Shown piece by piece: positions 2,999-20,169 of a stretch of 20,559 nucleotides of DNA; position 1 is the first letter of the stretch; every line of letters starts with the position of its first letter. The notes beneath the pieces were generated by a model. The model was given only the letters and a program-made list of their open reading frames with translations. It had not been told where the DNA came from and did no database searches. The DNA lies in IMG/VR virus record IMGVR_UViG_3300017771_003698, positions 1 through 20,559 of that record. One strand, written 5' to 3'. Origin of the DNA: a virus. The position numbers and the translations under genes are program-made.

Positions 2999-3388
2999 TT
3001 ACCTTCCTATATCTTTTATTTCTGTTTTAGGAATAACTTGATATGCACCTTTATTGTATGCAGGTGCAACTGTGAAATTCCTGCTTTCTTCTAATCGCCA
3101 GTTATGATGTGGTTTAGTGCCACCTATCTTCTGGCGAGGACGATGGGATTCGAACCCACGGCCTCCTGCGTGACAGGCAGGCGTTCTAACCGGCTGAACT
3201 ACGCCCTCATTTCTTTGGTCATACCAATTAGGAATAACCTTGAAATTTTTTCTATCAATCTTTCTATCAGGATCAATACCTAATGATTTAAGATATTGCC
3301 TGTGTTCTTTTCTTGCTTTAATCAAACTATCTGTAAGAGGTAGTTTTTTTCTCTTTGACTTCTTAAATGATGTGTAAAATATTGCCAT
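2999..3388 (-). CDS. Small phage protein of unknown function, interrupted by an in-frame tRNA gene (129-codon ORF)
   Basis: The ORF is open for 129 codons, but codons 61-86 coincide with a tRNA-Asp gene. Their translation (VVQPVRTPACHAGGRGFE...) is the familiar artefact peptide of a tRNA read as protein. The flanks look like real coding sequence: a basic N-terminus MAIFYTSFKKSKRKKLPL (1-18) and a C-terminus with APAYNKGAYQVIPKTEIKDIGR. I recall these as the two ends of a small phage protein family of unknown function, about 100 aa without any tRNA segment. So either the tRNA landed in the gene and left the frame open, or the two halves are relics. The ATG is only 8 nt from the promoter -10, giving an almost leaderless message. 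Whether a full 129-aa protein is made is uncertain. Confidence 0.6.
   Translation of the reverse strand: MAIFYTSFKKSKRKKLPLTDSLIKARKEHRQYLKSLGIDPDRKIDRKNFKVIPNWYDQRNEGVVQPVRTPACHAGGRGFESHRPRQKIGGTKPHHNWRLEESRNFTVAPAYNKGAYQVIPKTEIKDIGR
3132..3208 (-). tRNA. trnD: tRNA-Asp (anticodon GUC), CCA encoded
   Basis: Complete 77-nt cloverleaf on the minus strand. The 7-bp acceptor stem GAGGGCG/CGTCCTC has one G-U pair. The D arm is GTTC/GAAC, the anticodon stem CCTGC/GCAGG with loop CTGTCAC (anticodon GTC), and the T arm GTGGG/CCCAT with loop TTCGAAT. Discriminator G is followed by genomically encoded CCA. It is far more GC-rich than its surroundings. It lies inside an ORF on the same strand and would share that ORF's promoter (3397-3425). 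Asp identity elements (GUC, G73) are intact, so it is predicted functional. Confidence 0.96.
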
Positions 3389-3396
3389 ACTCTTTA

Positions 3397-3425
3397 ATAC
3401 TATCAGGAAACGATTGCATTGTCAA
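3397..3425 (-). promoter_or_regulatory. Sigma-70 promoter, extended -10, overlapping the upstream stop
   Basis: TTGACA at 3425-3420, a 17-bp spacer, then TAGTAT at 3402-3397, preceded by TGA as an extended -10 (TGn). That TGA is the stop codon of the upstream gene, and the -35 lies within its last codons (Leu-Asp-Asn). The next ATG is 8 nt beyond the -10, so the message would be nearly leaderless. It would drive the tRNA-containing ORF and the genes below. Confidence 0.8.
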
Positions 3426-4652: not shown

Positions 4653-5807
4653 TTATCTAGTATTACCGTAATATTTTATTACACAATGTTTGGTTGCGTC
4701 TGAATGTTTAAGACTTCTATATGGATCAATAATACAACTACCAGGATTAAATTGTTTGGGGATTAAACCTTTATCATGTATTAGATAAGTATATGCACCC
4801 TCGTCTGGTGCCTTATCATAATATACTTTCATACTACTATCAAGATTTTCAATATACCAACCAACTAACATAGACGGACTTCCTGCCGTCTGGTCAATAC
4901 CAGGTTTAAATGCTTTGCCTAAAATGACTACTGGCATTTGATACTTTAAACAATATCTTGCCATATTCTCTGCTTGTGATTCTCGTACTTTCATAATACT
5001 ATCAAACAAATCATAACCAAGATTTAATTGTTTTGCCATATGTCTTAAAGCAATATTATCTCTAGGGTGACAAGCACCACCATCACCAAAACCTGCCATC
5101 ATGTAACTAGGTCCCATAATTCTTTGTGTGGAGTGTTTCAATGCGTCTGTGACTACATCAACATTTATATTACCAACTTTCATTGCCACATCTTGTATCA
5201 TATTTACTAAACACAACTTGGTTGTAATAAAGGTATTATAAAAAACTTTTAGTGCCTCTATTTCTTCCCAAGTACCTATTTCATATCTTGTATCTTTTTG
5301 TAGTATAGGGTCATAAACTTTTCTTAATGTTTGTGATTGCTCATCATCTTTACCAGATGAAGTTCCTATCATAATCATTTCAGGATTTCTCATATCCCAT
5401 TTTACTGTGCCTTGTGCAATTAAATATGGATTGTAAATAAACTTACCATTTTTAATTAGAGGTAAAACTTCTCGTCTTACCGTGCCAGGCAATACTGTTG
5501 AAATAACAGATATCAATGTATCTTTGTCAACCAAAGCATCTACATCTTTTACTGCTTGTATTAAGTATGAATAATCAAAATCTTTAGGTTCTAAATGTGA
5601 AGTAGGTGTCTCACCACCATACTTTGAATCGTGTGGTGTTTGTACTGCAACTAAAACTACATCTTTATCTTTACATGTTTCCTCAAGTGTTCCAGATAAA
5701 CCATCAACAACTACATTTGGATCGTAACCAACCACATCATGTTTCTCTGCTAAAACTTCAGCAGCGTCTCTACCTAATTTACCTAATCCTATAAATCCTA
5801 TTTTCAT
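4653..5807 (-). CDS. UDP-glucose/GDP-mannose dehydrogenase family protein
   Basis: NAD-dependent four-electron oxidation of a nucleotide sugar to its uronic acid is the family reaction. The N-terminal Rossmann motif is GFIGLGKLG (4-12). The central dimer domain has E184, K187 and N191 in EALKVFYNTF, and the catalytic cysteine C246 is in GGACHPRD. The C-terminal UDP-binding domain starts at VILGKAFKPGIDQTAGSPS (294-312). Two consensus elements differ from what I recall: the usual C-F-P-K-D is C-H-P-R-D, and the usual DDxRESP is IDQTAGSP, losing the Arg. At 384 aa it is slightly short for the family (about 390-440). The substrate may therefore not be UDP-glucose. It is the last gene of the accessory block and overlaps the NadE-type gene by 4 nt. 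Confidence 0.88.
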   Translation of the reverse strand: MKIGFIGLGKLGRDAAEVLAEKHDVVGYDPNVVVDGLSGTLEETCKDKDVVLVAVQTPHDSKYGGETPTSHLEPKDFDYSYLIQAVKDVDALVDKDTLISVISTVLPGTVRREVLPLIKNGKFIYNPYLIAQGTVKWDMRNPEMIMIGTSSGKDDEQSQTLRKVYDPILQKDTRYEIGTWEEIEALKVFYNTFITTKLCLVNMIQDVAMKVGNINVDVVTDALKHSTQRIMGPSYMMAGFGDGGACHPRDNIALRHMAKQLNLGYDLFDSIMKVRESQAENMARYCLKYQMPVVILGKAFKPGIDQTAGSPSMLVGWYIENLDSSMKVYYDKAPDEGAYTYLIHDKGLIPKQFNPGSCIIDPYRSLKHSDATKHCVIKYYGNTR

Positions 5808-6562
5808 CTAAACTTCTCCATATCGCATACTGGTATTGGAACCATCTTATGTTTGTTTTGTTCTTTTATCTTTCTATATATCTCTAATTTTCTTGCCTCT
5901 TCTGGAATTGTGACAATGGCACCCATATCATCTTGTATCATCGCCTTTTCTAAATCATCATAAGACATACCTATTTGATCTTCGTCTGTTCTACCATCAT
6001 CCCATAAACCATCAGTAGGTGGAGCGTCTTGTATGTCTTGTAAAATATTTAAATAGTTTGCCATTTTAAATACATCGCTTTTCATACAATCTGCAATAGG
6101 GGAAATATCTACACCACCATCACCATACTTAGTATAAAATCCTACACCAAAGTCTTCTACTTTATTACCTGTACCTATAACTAAACCATTATTAGATGTT
6201 GCCACTTGATATAACATCATCATTCTCAATCTACTTCTACTGTTAGCAAAAGCATGTTCACTATCTGCACCAAGATATTTTGATGCATTTTCAAACTCAT
6301 GAAATATTTTTTCTAAATTAATAATTCTTTTACTTACGTTAGAAAAGTTTTCTTCTAACCACCATGCATGTTCTAAAGCAAGCATGTCTTTATTCTTAAT
6401 TGTCATTACTATTGGTATTGTTCTTAAACCAGTTTTTGCTGATAACGTAGAAACCACGCTACTATCAATACCACCAGATACACCTACAACTAAACTTGTT
6501 TTATTATTTTGTTCAGCATAGTCTGTTATCCAATCAATAATATGTTCAATCTTCTCTTTCAT
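5804..6562 (-). CDS. nadE: NH3-dependent NAD+ synthetase (NadE-type)
   Basis: N-type ATP pyrophosphatase that adenylates deamido-NAD and amidates it with ammonia. The PP-loop SGGIDSS (29-35 from this start) and the family stretches GTGNKVEDFGVGFYTKYGDGG, DISPIAD.MKSDVF and APPTDGLWDDGRTDEDQIG are all present, so the enzyme looks intact. It has no glutaminase domain. Two ATGs compete: the one at 6571 directly abuts the AGGAG, while the one at 6562 has 9-nt spacing, so 6562 is chosen (252 aa, against 255). It overlaps the carbamoyltransferase by 17 nt and the dehydrogenase by 4 nt. It could simply restore NAD+ during infection, or amidate a carboxylated sugar made by its neighbour; the strong NadE motifs favour the former. 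Confidence 0.9.
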   Translation of the reverse strand: MKEKIEHIIDWITDYAEQNNKTSLVVGVSGGIDSSVVSTLSAKTGLRTIPIVMTIKNKDMLALEHAWWLEENFSNVSKRIINLEKIFHEFENASKYLGADSEHAFANSRSRLRMMMLYQVATSNNGLVIGTGNKVEDFGVGFYTKYGDGGVDISPIADCMKSDVFKMANYLNILQDIQDAPPTDGLWDDGRTDEDQIGMSYDDLEKAMIQDDMGAIVTIPEEARKLEIYRKIKEQNKHKMVPIPVCDMEKFR

Positions 6563-8099
6563 AAATTTCATCTCCTAAAAATAATTTATCTATTGGCATT
6601 TTTCTGAATGTTGCTAATGCTTGTTCAGGTGTTTCTACAATAGGTTCTTGGTAATTAAAACTTGTATTTAATACAGCAGGTAAACCACTTTGTTCTATGA
6701 TGTTATATAGTATTTCATTATGTTCTCGTTTTAAAATTTGTGGTCTTGTTGAATTATCAACATGATTAACACCTGTTAATTGATGTCTATATTTCTCTTT
6801 AATTACGGCGCTAGTCTGCATATATGGAGACCACTCGTTATAATCACTTAAATATTCATCTGCATACTTATCCAATATAATAGGTGCATATGGTCTATAC
6901 CATTCTCTTTGTTTAACTTGTTCGTTTAATATTTTTCTTATGTGTGGTATACTAGGATCACATAATATACTTCTATGTCCTAATGCTCTAGGTCCACTTT
7001 CACTACCACCTTCATAGTATGCAATAACATCACCTGATGATAAACTCTCTGCAACTTTATTAACATCTGGTGTACCAACTTTATAATCTGGTCCTGTATA
7101 TGGACTAAAGTAATCATTTGTTTTAGGATTGTTTAGAACATGATGCCAAACATACAAAGCTGCACCTATTGCCAAACCTGTGTCATTTGGAAATGGTGGT
7201 ACATGTAGATTTTCAAAATGTGTTTCTTTTATTATATCTCTATTAGCAATACAGTTTAAAGCCAAACCACCAGAGTAGCAAAGATTTGTTTCGCCTTGAT
7301 ATATATTTTTTATTTCACTTACTAATCTTTTTACAGTATATCTTTGTAATGTCGCTGCCACATTTTGTGACCTAAATCTTTTTGTATCTGATAAATCTTC
7401 ACACTCATTAAATGCTCTTGCTCTTGGATCAAAATTTTTAGGGCTTGGTGCCAATGCTAAATCTTGTCTTATTCTTGTTTCTAGTTCTTCATCACCAAAT
7501 GTACCATAACTAGATAAACCCATAATCTTACCTGCACCTGAACCTGGATCCCAATCATGTATTCTTTTCATTCTGTAATTATTAAAACATATTGATGACC
7601 AATAACTAGCAACATTTTCTTTTACTAGACCTTCGTATTGTTCTATCTTATTACCACGACCAAATGATGTACTTGCGTTCTCACTATCACCTCCACCATC
7701 CCATGTAAATATTCTCGCTGATGAATATGGACTTGTGTAGTATGCACTTGCGGCATGACATAAATGATGATTTACTGCAATACCTCTAGTACCATCGCCT
7801 ACATTAAATTCTATTGATTCTGATTGTGCTGTGTCAACTATTCTAAATGGTGGTAATTTATCTGGTTCTTTTCTACCAATCCAGTTTATAATGGACTTTG
7901 GAAAATTACATGCTAGTATGTTAATGTCGGTCCATTGTAAATTACAATGCTCTAGTGTTTTATTAACAAACTCTTGACTATAACCATAATCATGTTTAAT
8001 TCTAGAATGACGTTCCAGTTCCCAATTAATAAGAACTTTACCATCTTTAATTACACATGCTGAGGCGTTATGTCCATAATATAATCCTAGTATTATCAT
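6546..8099 (-). CDS. Carbamoyltransferase, NodU/CmcH/TobZ family
   Basis: Family enzymes make carbamoyl-adenylate from carbamoyl phosphate and ATP in an N-terminal Kae1-like domain and pass the carbamoyl group to a hydroxyl. Seen here: GLYYGHNASA (5-14) opening the ASKHA fold, the metal-binding histidine motif HHLCHAASAYYTSP (111-124), TWDGGGD (132-138), SGGLALNC (276-283), PFPNDTGLAIGAAL (302-315), GSESGPRALGHRSI (365-378) and REWYRPYAP (398-406), with the Carbam_trans_C domain to the end. At 517 aa it is near the usual length (about 550-600). It overlaps the methyltransferase by 4 nt and nadE by 17 nt. Bacterial members act on antibiotics and Nod factors, and phage members on 5-hydroxymethylcytosine are reported. 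The acceptor here is unknown; the context of glycosyltransferases and a sugar dehydrogenase suggests a sugar. Confidence 0.93.
   Translation of the reverse strand: MIILGLYYGHNASACVIKDGKVLINWELERHSRIKHDYGYSQEFVNKTLEHCNLQWTDINILACNFPKSIINWIGRKEPDKLPPFRIVDTAQSESIEFNVGDGTRGIAVNHHLCHAASAYYTSPYSSARIFTWDGGGDSENASTSFGRGNKIEQYEGLVKENVASYWSSICFNNYRMKRIHDWDPGSGAGKIMGLSSYGTFGDEELETRIRQDLALAPSPKNFDPRARAFNECEDLSDTKRFRSQNVAATLQRYTVKRLVSEIKNIYQGETNLCYSGGLALNCIANRDIIKETHFENLHVPPFPNDTGLAIGAALYVWHHVLNNPKTNDYFSPYTGPDYKVGTPDVNKVAESLSSGDVIAYYEGGSESGPRALGHRSILCDPSIPHIRKILNEQVKQREWYRPYAPIILDKYADEYLSDYNEWSPYMQTSAVIKEKYRHQLTGVNHVDNSTRPQILKREHNEILYNIIEQSGLPAVLNTSFNYQEPIVETPEQALATFRKMPIDKLFLGDEIYERED
6572..6576 (-). promoter_or_regulatory. 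Shine-Dalgarno deciding the nadE start
   Basis: AGGAG lies immediately before the ATG at 6571 (zero spacing) and 9 nt before the ATG at 6562. The spacing supports the downstream start. The site lies within the 3' end of the carbamoyltransferase gene. Confidence 0.65.
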
Positions 8100-8752
8100 C
8101 TATGTGCAATTATTAAACCATTACCTTTATCGTCAACCTTTTGCCAATTCTTTTTAAAGGGTCCTAGATCATGTGTGGCCTTATCAATAGTCCAACCAGC
8201 ACTTTCAAATTTGTTCACCCACCAGTCTAACGTTTCTCGTATAAAGTGTGATTTATCATGTTCATAACTTTCAATAATATATTTCTCACCATCACCAAGT
8301 GGTATCATTGCTAATATTTTTTGACCACCTTTGTTTAATACTTTTAACTGTTCGTCTATATCTTCATAAGGTATGTGTTCTAATATATCTTTACACAGCA
8401 CCCAAGTATAAGAATCAGGACCAGCACAAACTAGAGCATCTTTTGGTTGTATAACACCTAACCATCGTCTTATATCTTCATCTGCTTTACTTACAGCATA
8501 TTCAGATACATCTACACCATATGCTTTATGACCTAGTAATCGTAAACCTTTTACTGTAAATCCTTTGGCACAACCAAAGTCTAATAATTTTTCTTCTGGT
8601 TTAAGGTTAGTATATTGTACAATGTGATGACACATTGGTATAGTAAGTTCTGGCATCCAACGATAGTGTGAGTATAAAGACTTTCCAGTCTCCGCACCTC
8701 TTTCGTAATAATTTTCATCAAAATAATCTGTTGCCTTAAATGAAGTTTTCAT
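8096..8752 (-). CDS. Class I SAM-dependent methyltransferase
   Basis: Rossmann methyltransferase of 218 aa. Motif I LLDFGCAKGF (56-65) binds SAM, followed by YGVDVSEYAV for the acidic ribose ligand and CKDILEHIPYEDI for the post-IV region, as in the Methyltransf_11/23 type. An N-terminal segment, TDYFDENYYERGAETG, and a WMPELT motif resemble the small-molecule or sugar methyltransferases found in surface-polysaccharide clusters. No zinc-binding or target-recognition domain is present, so DNA is an unlikely substrate. It overlaps the radical SAM gene by 17 nt and the carbamoyltransferase by 4 nt. Confidence 0.88.
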   Translation of the reverse strand: MKTSFKATDYFDENYYERGAETGKSLYSHYRWMPELTIPMCHHIVQYTNLKPEEKLLDFGCAKGFTVKGLRLLGHKAYGVDVSEYAVSKADEDIRRWLGVIQPKDALVCAGPDSYTWVLCKDILEHIPYEDIDEQLKVLNKGGQKILAMIPLGDGEKYIIESYEHDKSHFIRETLDWWVNKFESAGWTIDKATHDLGPFKKNWQKVDDKGNGLIIAHR

Positions 8753-14043: not shown

Positions 14044-14781
14044 TTATATCTCCTTGTAATAATCCTTGTGCCTGTAGTATAAATCTTTTAGATTTTCTAC
14101 CTTGCTGTCTTTGTCTAGTAAATTTCTAAACAACTCTTTATCTTCGCTCCATTTTCTACCAGTCCACCATTCAAATCCATTGTAGTGAGACTTATATTCA
14201 CATACATTTTCATAAGCATATGATGAATAATAGTATTCATAACCCATATCTTTGTATAAGGCACACTCGTAATTTTGTGCAACTGTGCCTAAACTTAGTT
14301 CAGGATTTTCATAGTTCCAAGCAAATTCACCTGCAACTATTGATTTCTTAAATCTAGTTAATTGAGTATAACCTATAATTTTACTATCGTGCCAGTAAAT
14401 AAAATAGTCTTTATTACCATACTCTTTATCAACTAATTCACTTCCATGATCATCATATCCTTTATAATCACAATACTGTTTAAATATAATGTCACACTCT
14501 TTCTGCCAAGGATTATCATCAGGATAATACTTACCAGTAATTTCTTTCTTTAAGTATTGTCTATGTTTCTTTTTAAGAGAAAATTTACTTAAATCAATTC
14601 TTGTTGTTCTCGCTTGTACCCACAACTGTTTATCTGTCTGATAGAAGAAAGCATCCATAGGTGTCCAACCTAATTTTAATGCTTGATCTTCTTCTTCTTT
14701 TTCAACCTCTGCTAATGCAAGTCCGTAGATTAAATCATACTTCGTTGTATTACCATAGATGTGGTCATAAAATACTTTCAC
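14044..14781 (-). CDS. ATE/Bpt-like aminoacyl-tRNA-protein transferase homologue
   Basis: The C-terminal region LSLGTVAQNYECALYKDMGYEYYYSSYAYENVCEYK (split at about residues 162-197), followed by FEWWTGRKW, resembles the GNAT-like core of arginyl- and leucyl-tRNA-protein transferases (S-L-G, then Y-Y-x-x-Y, then Y-K, then W). The N-terminal part has GWTPMD and a segment RIDLSKFSLKKKHRQYLKK, which recalls the RVxVxxFxxSRSxRR region of ATE. The usual N-terminal cysteines are missing. True members add Arg or Leu to protein N-termini from charged tRNA. The start is GTG, with GAGGA a few bases upstream, and overlaps the preceding stop by 1 nt. It lies between nrdA and nrdB. Confidence 0.65.
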   Translation of the reverse strand: MKVFYDHIYGNTTKYDLIYGLALAEVEKEEEDQALKLGWTPMDAFFYQTDKQLWVQARTTRIDLSKFSLKKKHRQYLKKEITGKYYPDDNPWQKECDIIFKQYCDYKGYDDHGSELVDKEYGNKDYFIYWHDSKIIGYTQLTRFKKSIVAGEFAWNYENPELSLGTVAQNYECALYKDMGYEYYYSSYAYENVCEYKSHYNGFEWWTGRKWSEDKELFRNLLDKDSKVENLKDLYYRHKDYYKEI

Positions 14782-18819: not shown

Positions 18820-18848
18820 ATTATATCAGAATTATGCTAGATTGTCAA
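18820..18848 (-). promoter_or_regulatory. Consensus sigma-70 promoter for the primase-nrd operon
   Basis: TTGACA at 18848-18843, exactly 17 bp, then TATAAT at 18825-18820, with TGA just before it as an extended -10. Both hexamers are perfect consensus. The -35 lies in the last codons of the HNH gene (Leu-Asp-Asn) and the -10 starts after its stop. The primase ATG follows 8 nt later. No terminator precedes it, so readthrough from the HNH gene adds to it. Confidence 0.88.
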
Positions 18849-20169
18849 GGACTTTTCTATAATCTTCTAAGTCCATTGTACCCATTGCTCTGTTATGTTC
18901 TCGTCTAACCATAACCATATTACTCATGGTAGTTTTACCACCATTTTTATGTGCAATGATATGGGCAGCTTCAGCGTCTCCGTATAATAACGGTTGACCA
19001 TCTAAAGAACATTTATAATCTTGTTGTGCTAGTCTCAACTCTTTTTGTTCTTTATTAAAGTTTCTTTTAGAATCTTGCACAGTAATTACTGCTTCGTAAT
19101 TAAATTCTAATATTAACCAATCAACAGCTTTTTTAATTTTCTTCTCATGGTGTGGAGCACCAAGATAGTTTTTAAATGCCTCTGCAATTGTTCTTTGTTT
19201 TGAATCAAAGTCAATCGTAGGGTCTTTAGTAACAAGAGTATTACCATAATTAAAATGGTCTTTATCTTGTAACGTTTTCATTGCTGTATTATAAGATTTA
19301 ATAAACTCTTGATAATCAGGCTCAAATGGACCTACTTTATCTAAAAGATAATATCTTATGAATGTTAACATTTTGAAATCTTGCATTGATAAAGTCGTAC
19401 CAATGTGTGTTTTCTTTGCAATGGCACATTTAAGTAAATAATCAAAATGTGATTTGACATTTTTTTCTAATAAAACAAAATCATTTTCATCAAAATTTGT
19501 TTTATACATTTTATCTAAATCTTCATATGATGAACTACCTAGTAATTCATCTTGGGTATATCTAAAAACAATACGAGCAACCATTTCCTCTGTCTTTAAT
19601 CTAGTGTTATCAAAGTTTAGAAATCTAAAATTTTTGTCTTGGGTAGTTTCAAATAATGGGTGTGTAATATTATCAACACCAGGAACTACTCTTACTAAAT
19701 TTCTAATTAAATTTGCGATAGCAATATCGCCATAAGAATTTAATGTCTCTTGATCGTTAACATCTGTGGTTTCGTTTATCGTTCTAAAGATATAACCTTT
19801 TGTAAAGACATCTAGCTTTTCATATATAACGAACATCAATTCGTATGCATTGAACTTGTCTTTTTCTTCTTGGGTTAATTCGCTATAGAACTTTCCATTG
19901 ACTTTAAATTTATTTGTTCTATAATCGTGGATGTATCTTTTACGGTGACCACCATCTACGGAATCGTTTTCGTATTTTGGATCGTTTTGATTTTTAACGA
20001 TAGTGATTTGACCAATGTCTATGCCTTGTAAGATAGTATTAATAATACCGTCTCTTTTATCAGACTTATCTGTTACTGGTAATCTTTGTCCTATTGGGGA
20101 ACAGTTTATATCGTTATACCAATTTGACACATAATCGCCAATTGATATTGCTTGTTTAGTATATTTCAT
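18832..20169 (-). CDS. DUF262-HNH nuclease (GmrSD/ParB-like plus HNH)
   Basis: The N-terminal DUF262-type domain has a NTILQGIDIGQITIV strand and the box VDGGHRKRYI (71-80, DGGHR 72-76), which in this family lies in a ParB-like NTPase. The C-terminal HNH nuclease reads CSLDGQ (C387), AAHIIAHKNGG (H403, H407), SNMVMV (N417) and REHN (H425, N426). The middle is a helical linker. GmrSD-type relatives cut modified DNA in an NTP-dependent way; a phage copy could attack competing phages or host DNA, or act as a mobile endonuclease. It has its own consensus promoter, an AAGGAG 7 nt before the ATG, and a 5' UTR of about 45 nt. Confidence 0.88.
   Translation of the reverse strand: MKYTKQAISIGDYVSNWYNDINCSPIGQRLPVTDKSDKRDGIINTILQGIDIGQITIVKNQNDPKYENDSVDGGHRKRYIHDYRTNKFKVNGKFYSELTQEEKDKFNAYELMFVIYEKLDVFTKGYIFRTINETTDVNDQETLNSYGDIAIANLIRNLVRVVPGVDNITHPLFETTQDKNFRFLNFDNTRLKTEEMVARIVFRYTQDELLGSSSYEDLDKMYKTNFDENDFVLLEKNVKSHFDYLLKCAIAKKTHIGTTLSMQDFKMLTFIRYYLLDKVGPFEPDYQEFIKSYNTAMKTLQDKDHFNYGNTLVTKDPTIDFDSKQRTIAEAFKNYLGAPHHEKKIKKAVDWLILEFNYEAVITVQDSKRNFNKEQKELRLAQQDYKCSLDGQPLLYGDAEAAHIIAHKNGGKTTMSNMVMVRREHNRAMGTMDLEDYRKVLDNLA

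Follow-up and report, generated by a model that had tools for sequence, protein, structure and literature searches.

Dual-function RNAs, overlapping genes and elements inserted in frame are already known kinds of arrangement. In Rickettsia, the palindromic elements (RPEs) are small mobile elements that lie in frame in protein genes and add a tolerated peptide; they are repeats found in many unrelated genes and are not known to have a cellular RNA function. A literature search for them turned up genome papers only, which mention them. In the E. coli tyrT/tpr transcript and in operons of the thrU-tufB type, a tRNA and a protein come from one transcript, with the tRNA and the ORF lying side by side or sharing only tRNA-derived repeats. 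In animal mitochondria, where tRNAs punctuate the transcript, same-strand overlaps of tRNA and mRNA are usually confined to a few nucleotides at the gene ends, and neighbouring products are parted by processing. Bifunctional RNAs and tmRNA have either a minor peptide or a specialised RNA. Annotation errors often take the form of an ORF running across a tRNA gene. SgrS/SgrT and RyhB/RyhP are bifunctional RNAs that combine a functional RNA and a message in one (PMC5331693). tRNAs were counted in 18 genomes in a survey of pelagimyophages, and in the passages that a term search of its text returned, nested tRNAs are not mentioned (PMC7029224). Among published open-access papers, no precedent was found for an exchangeable, complete, same-strand tRNA serving as the linker of a conserved protein gene.

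We analysed a 20.6-kb virus record (IMGVR_UViG_3300017771_003698, positions 1-20,559; the whole stretch is called the window here), which is akin to the Pelagibacter (SAR11) myophage HTVC008M, with 59% covered and 76% identity. On its minus strand, an ORF of 129 aa (2,999-3,388) starts with ATG and stays open through a whole tRNA gene, as judged from the ORF list, contiguous homologues and family alignments. Codons 1-60 (3,209-3,388) encode a basic N-terminal domain with the motif KKSKRKK and, by AlphaFold2, a helix at residues 20-35; this domain is under purifying selection. The tRNA-Asp(GUC) occupies 3,132-3,208, is complete at 77 nt and carries an encoded CCA; it starts at base 3,208, which opens codon 61. 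ARAGORN called it Asp(GTC), and Rfam (RF00005) matched it over its full length with 71.7 bits, the cut-off being 29; it has a full cloverleaf, an anticodon and a CCA end. Together with base 3,131, the tRNA forms codons 61-86 and encodes the peptide EGVVQPVRTPACHAGGRGFESHRPRQ, a predicted disordered linker. Codons 87-129 (3,002-3,130) form the C-terminal domain, which is conserved by its invariant columns and pN/pS and has the family-wide consensus GGTKP..NWRLEES..FTVAPAYNKGAYQVI....IKDIGR. The stop codon TAA (2,999-3,001) is followed by the next same-strand gene, whose ATG lies at 2,993. The preliminary description had claimed a complete tRNA-Asp(GUC) with CCA at codon 61 of an ORF open throughout, and ARAGORN, Rfam and the ORF list agree on this. 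It had also claimed that the frame is kept despite the 77 nt, and one further base indeed completes codons 61-86. A tmRNA identity was considered and rejected, as the window locus matches RF00005 only.

Upstream of the ATG lies a sigma-70-like promoter (3,397-3,425, minus strand), consisting of TTGACA (3,425-3,420), a 17-nt spacer and TAGTAT (3,402-3,397) with an extended TG, and matching the consensus at 10 of 12 positions. The -10 box ends 8 nt ahead of the ATG, which predicts that the window mRNA is leaderless or nearly so and that some 180 nt precede the tRNA in it. Across the family, a TTGACA-N16-18-TATAAT-like promoter ending 5-11 nt before the ATG was present in 63/98 tRNA-bearing loci and in 0/98 shuffles; about one third of the tRNA-bearing loci were without this promoter, and 16/46 tRNA-free loci had the same arrangement. 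Judging by these consensus-like sigma-70 promoters, whose -10 box directly adjoins the start codon, early mRNAs of these phages may often be leaderless.

Three other regions of the window, all on the minus strand, deserve a brief record. A 245-aa ORF with a GTG start (14,044-14,781) lies beside ribonucleotide reductase genes and gave a weak match to ATE_C (arginine-tRNA-protein transferase), its 24.3 bits falling just short of the cut-off of 25; its product is possibly a phage aminoacyl-tRNA protein transferase. The 445-aa product of 18,832-20,169 has DGGHR near its N-terminus and an HNH-like C-terminus (AAHIIAHKNGG); by eye it resembles DUF262-HNH (GmrSD-like) proteins, and it had no Pfam match. 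Pfam identified a UDP-sugar dehydrogenase, an NAD synthase and a NodU-type carbamoyltransferase, followed by a methyltransferase-looking ORF, within 4,653-8,752, and this cassette probably comprises surface-sugar modification genes.

To characterize the gene beyond the window, a family set was assembled by a family search and by scanning DNA for a pattern in which a tRNA T-loop and CCA precede the C-terminal motif; the pattern, which supplied most of the tRNA carriers, imposed no reading frame. Among the 152 distinct family sequences obtained, 105 had a tRNA within the linker. Counted by the tRNA first recorded in each ORF, the kinds were Thr-TGT (33), Ala-TGC (27), Asp-GTC (26), Pro-TGG (8), Glu-TTC (5), Arg-TCT (5) and Cys-GCA (1), and at 80% identity the nested tRNAs formed about 15 clusters. 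Ten distinct sequences, namely the window and nine further IMG/VR contigs, carry this tRNA-Asp at the same codon with the ORF open, and other tRNAs occupied the homologous place in about 95 further sequences. Seven ORFs contained two tandem tRNAs, both in frame (Arg+Pro, Glu+Ala or Ala+Pro). In the phage loci examined, 164/168 tRNAs fell inside this gene. The nested anticodons match codons that are frequent in the window, namely ACA, GCA, CCA, GAA and AGA. A tRNA was present in 31 of the 80 closest relatives (the best 80 to an alignment that included tRNA carriers), and the trait is therefore common and not universal. No nested form was found in cultured phages among INPHARED records, and both isolates found in the group, HTVC008M and Mosig, are without it.

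The tRNA-free relatives show the two flanks to be one protein. HTVC008M (AGE60505) and Mosig (QOI69135) have full-length, contiguous homologues with no tRNA at that site. Many metagenomic relatives are contiguous too, with a variable linker of about 18-27 residues between the basic N-terminal part and the conserved C-terminal part. Contiguous homologues lacking the tRNA, which the preliminary description had proposed to look for, thus exist; homologues run past codon 60, and both flanks have them. A weak match to phrog_4593 covered only the C-terminal 28 residues (E 2e-4), and no Pfam family matched the window protein. AlphaFold2 gave the window protein a pLDDT above 90 at residues 21-40, with its helix predicted confidently, and very low confidence at residues 66-79, within the tRNA-encoded stretch; in the tRNA-free HTVC008M-type homologue, confidence was low beyond residue 50. 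Global confidence was low for both proteins (pTM 0.28 and 0.34, respectively). The low confidence in the linker fits a permissive, disordered segment. A small gene with a C-terminus resembling APAYNKGAYQVI..IKDIGR (E 0.2-1) was also noticed in the T5-like phages KY363465 (45,871-46,149) and OR862218 (34,968-35,252), and these genes are possibly distant tRNA-free relatives of the family. In the T5-like relatives sharing this C-terminal motif (Providencia PR1 and Salmonella SP33), the gene sits after an RNase H gene, and no tRNA is annotated within or beside it.

We then compared selection on the parts of the gene. In 44 disjoint pairs of tRNA-bearing sequences, pooled pN/pS was 0.26 upstream of the tRNA (95% interval 0.20-0.32) and 0.19 downstream (0.15-0.24), with values of 0.27 and 0.11 in the window's clade. 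Strong purifying selection after the tRNA was seen in every tRNA-bearing clade with enough data. These values indicate a constraint on the protein before as well as after the tRNA. The earlier proposal that both flanks are coding holds: they are parts of one protein with contiguous homologues. Inside the tRNA the pattern was different: pS fell to 0.052, as against 0.26-0.29 in the flanks, a five-fold suppression, and was lower in 42/44 pairs. With pN/pS at 0.76 (0.51-1.07) there, no amino-acid-level selection on the linker residues was detected in the 44 pairs. A low pS together with this ratio is what a constraint on the RNA rather than on the peptide would produce in that part. In agreement with such a constraint, stems were paired at 95-100% of the checked positions in each 76-nt type. 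Two sequences (L146 and L155) are identical around the gene except for two compensated base pairs in the anticodon stem, and in another comparison (L003 and L025) one T-stem pair differs, with the pairing kept and the amino acid altered.

The ORF was open through the tRNA in 104/104 carriers not cut by a contig end; the exception, L174, starts at a contig edge. All three frames relative to the tRNA are used, and the frame differs between clusters. Free-standing alphaproteobacterial tRNAs (n = 186) had a mean of 1.02 of 3 frames open, whereas in nested tRNAs the used frame was open in 61/61 distinct sequences. Considered by kind, the used frame was open in 0/12 free and 4/4 nested Arg tRNAs, in 4/29 free and 7/7 nested Asp tRNAs in frame 1, and in 22/32 free and 14/14 nested Thr tRNAs, counts that are not independent because the sequences are related; they are a sign that stops have been removed in these nested tRNAs. 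For Pro, Ala and Asp in frame 0, the used frame is usually open in free tRNAs as well, and stop avoidance alone is therefore only moderate evidence overall; we regard it as strong in Arg tRNAs and in Asp tRNAs read in frame 1 or 2. Outside the gene, 3/4 tRNAs in the examined phage loci were closed in all frames. Phage Mosig belongs to a related group and shares tRNA kinds with the nested set (Pro-TGG, Arg-TCT), but its Pro, Arg and Leu tRNAs are free-standing, between genes; its tRNA-Pro is closed in all frames, and its Arg and Leu tRNAs have an open frame.

Taken together, the frame open in 104/104 carriers, the suppressed synonymous change and the compensatory changes in the stems indicate that evolution has apparently preserved one RNA stretch in two roles, as message and as tRNA. 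The preliminary description had also raised the possibility of a gene split by tRNA capture. This part did not stand: purifying selection continues downstream, the frame is never lost, and no in-frame ATG, GTG or TTG lies between the tRNA and the C-terminal motif in 54/105 loci. Judged by these comparisons, the gene is not broken, and the tRNA now serves as its linker.

Closely related loci further showed that tRNAs come and go at this site. One tRNA-Asp carrier (L175) and a tRNA-free relative (L047) have near-identical flanking DNA and wholly different linkers. Likewise, L163 (Ala) and L133 (Pro) have near-identical flanks with a different tRNA in the linker, and L144 (Arg+Pro) has one tRNA more than L136 (Pro). 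On a poorly resolved tree of the flanks, built from 94 columns, we counted no fewer than 13 gains or losses of a tRNA and 32 changes of kind, figures that recombination may have inflated. No decayed-tRNA remnants above shuffles were found in the linkers of tRNA-free relatives. A recent bacterial donor of the window tRNA was sought and rejected: an exact 41-mer matched six GTDB genomes that belong to different phyla and do not include any labelled as Pelagibacter, and with such mixed matches no donor can be named. Regarding other structured RNAs in these phages, Mosig has an annotated SsrA tmRNA as well, and a pelagimyophage-like contig with a nested tRNA-Thr (L194, 194-477, minus strand) gave matches to the alphaproteobacterial and permuted tmRNA families (Rfam 77.7 and 82.7 bits).

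The reading we prefer, with a probability of roughly three in four, is that of a dual-function gene in which one transcript is either translated whole or processed to free a working tRNA. One transcript must carry both tRNA and message, as anticipated earlier. The sequences show that tRNAs are nested in this gene, that the nesting is inherited and recurrent, that tRNAs are swapped, that selection acts on the protein in both flanks and on the RNA in between, and that the frame is not lost. All elements in the DNA agree with the dual use, whereas we infer read-through translation, RNase P cleavage, tRNA charging and how transcripts are divided between protein and tRNA. The host-type promoter just upstream of the ATG would yield a leaderless mRNA. 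Intact copies would be translated through the tRNA to give a small basic phage protein with a disordered linker encoded by the tRNA. Other copies would fold the tRNA, its ends being cut by host RNase P and 3' tRNA-processing nucleases, and cleavage would free a working tRNA while sacrificing that message copy. Because processing should destroy the message, a cost is implied, and no balancing mechanism was found. The linker, which tolerates almost any in-frame sequence, would serve as a docking slot where tRNA kinds can be inserted, swapped, doubled or lost, provided that the used frame is free of stops.

The nearest competitor to this dual use is a cis-acting processing switch, in which RNase P cleavage sets the half-life or translation of the message and the released tRNA is unimportant. 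Free swapping of tRNA kinds in one slot, as if any tRNA sufficed, would suit such a switch, as would a tRNA in a promoter-proximal, leaderless message. However, relatives without any tRNA retain the gene, the anticodons are non-random and fit frequent phage codons, the CCA is encoded, and tandem tRNAs of two kinds exist; we therefore consider the switch unlikely. If instead the protein alone mattered, with a linker merely of tRNA ancestry after one insertion, the uninterrupted ORF (104/104) and the protein-level selection on the flanks would be accounted for. The five-fold synonymous suppression, the stem pairing of 95-100%, the compensatory changes and an Rfam score far above the cut-off would not, and a dead linker would drift like the linkers of tRNA-free relatives, which makes this explanation highly improbable.

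Cleavage would also leave two mRNA pieces, and one could imagine two products without any fusion: an N-terminal peptide that stops within the tRNA region, and a C-terminal peptide for which translation starts anew once the RNA has been cut. An ATG, GTG or TTG past the tRNA is indeed present in about half of the loci. The 54/105 loci without such a codon include the window, whose ORF has no in-frame start codon from the tRNA to the C-terminal motif; the tRNA-free relatives make one continuous protein, and the shared frame without stops through the tRNA would be left unexplained. We hold two products to be quite improbable. Finally, the ORF might surround a tRNA gene by chance or stem from faulty assembly, given that free tRNAs average one open frame in three. 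This is refuted by comparison and retains hardly any probability: the flanks are conserved, homologues are contiguous, selection persists after the tRNA, and the arrangement recurs in about 100 contigs from many metagenomes.

Set against the described systems, the dual-function gene resembles the RPEs in that a structured RNA-forming element lies in frame within a conserved protein gene, but the inserts in these phages are complete, conserved tRNA genes, which are of many kinds and occupy a single gene family. An identity with RPEs was rejected on that ground, the insert being a tRNA and 164/168 tRNAs of the examined phage loci lying in the one family. As with bifunctional RNAs and tmRNA, one RNA is proposed, on evolutionary evidence, to act both as functional RNA and as message; unlike them, a standard tRNA lies wholly inside an independently conserved ORF, and use of the tRNA must cut the message. 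The animal mitochondrial overlaps share with it the use of the same nucleotides for tRNA and mRNA on one strand, whereas the overlap here is total and internal. It also differs from tyrT/tpr and thrU-tufB, as the whole tRNA is inside the conserved ORF. On balance, we think it probable that this is a novel gene architecture, with exchangeable functional tRNA genes used as in-frame protein linkers and each leaderless transcript giving either protein or tRNA.

In summary, a whole same-strand tRNA in a conserved ORF is normally dismissed as an annotation error, and gene finders drop one of the two. The comparative evidence shows that viruses infecting the most abundant bacteria of the sea have retained both layers, and have done so independently many times. 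It also implies that phage tRNAs and proteins are missed wherever overlapping calls are filtered. The locus offers a natural experiment in which the ribosome and RNase P would compete for one RNA, and it bears on the acquisition and exchange of tRNAs by phages and on the extent to which an RNA can dictate a protein. If the proposed dual use is true, the tRNA supply of these phages would be coupled to the expression of one protein.
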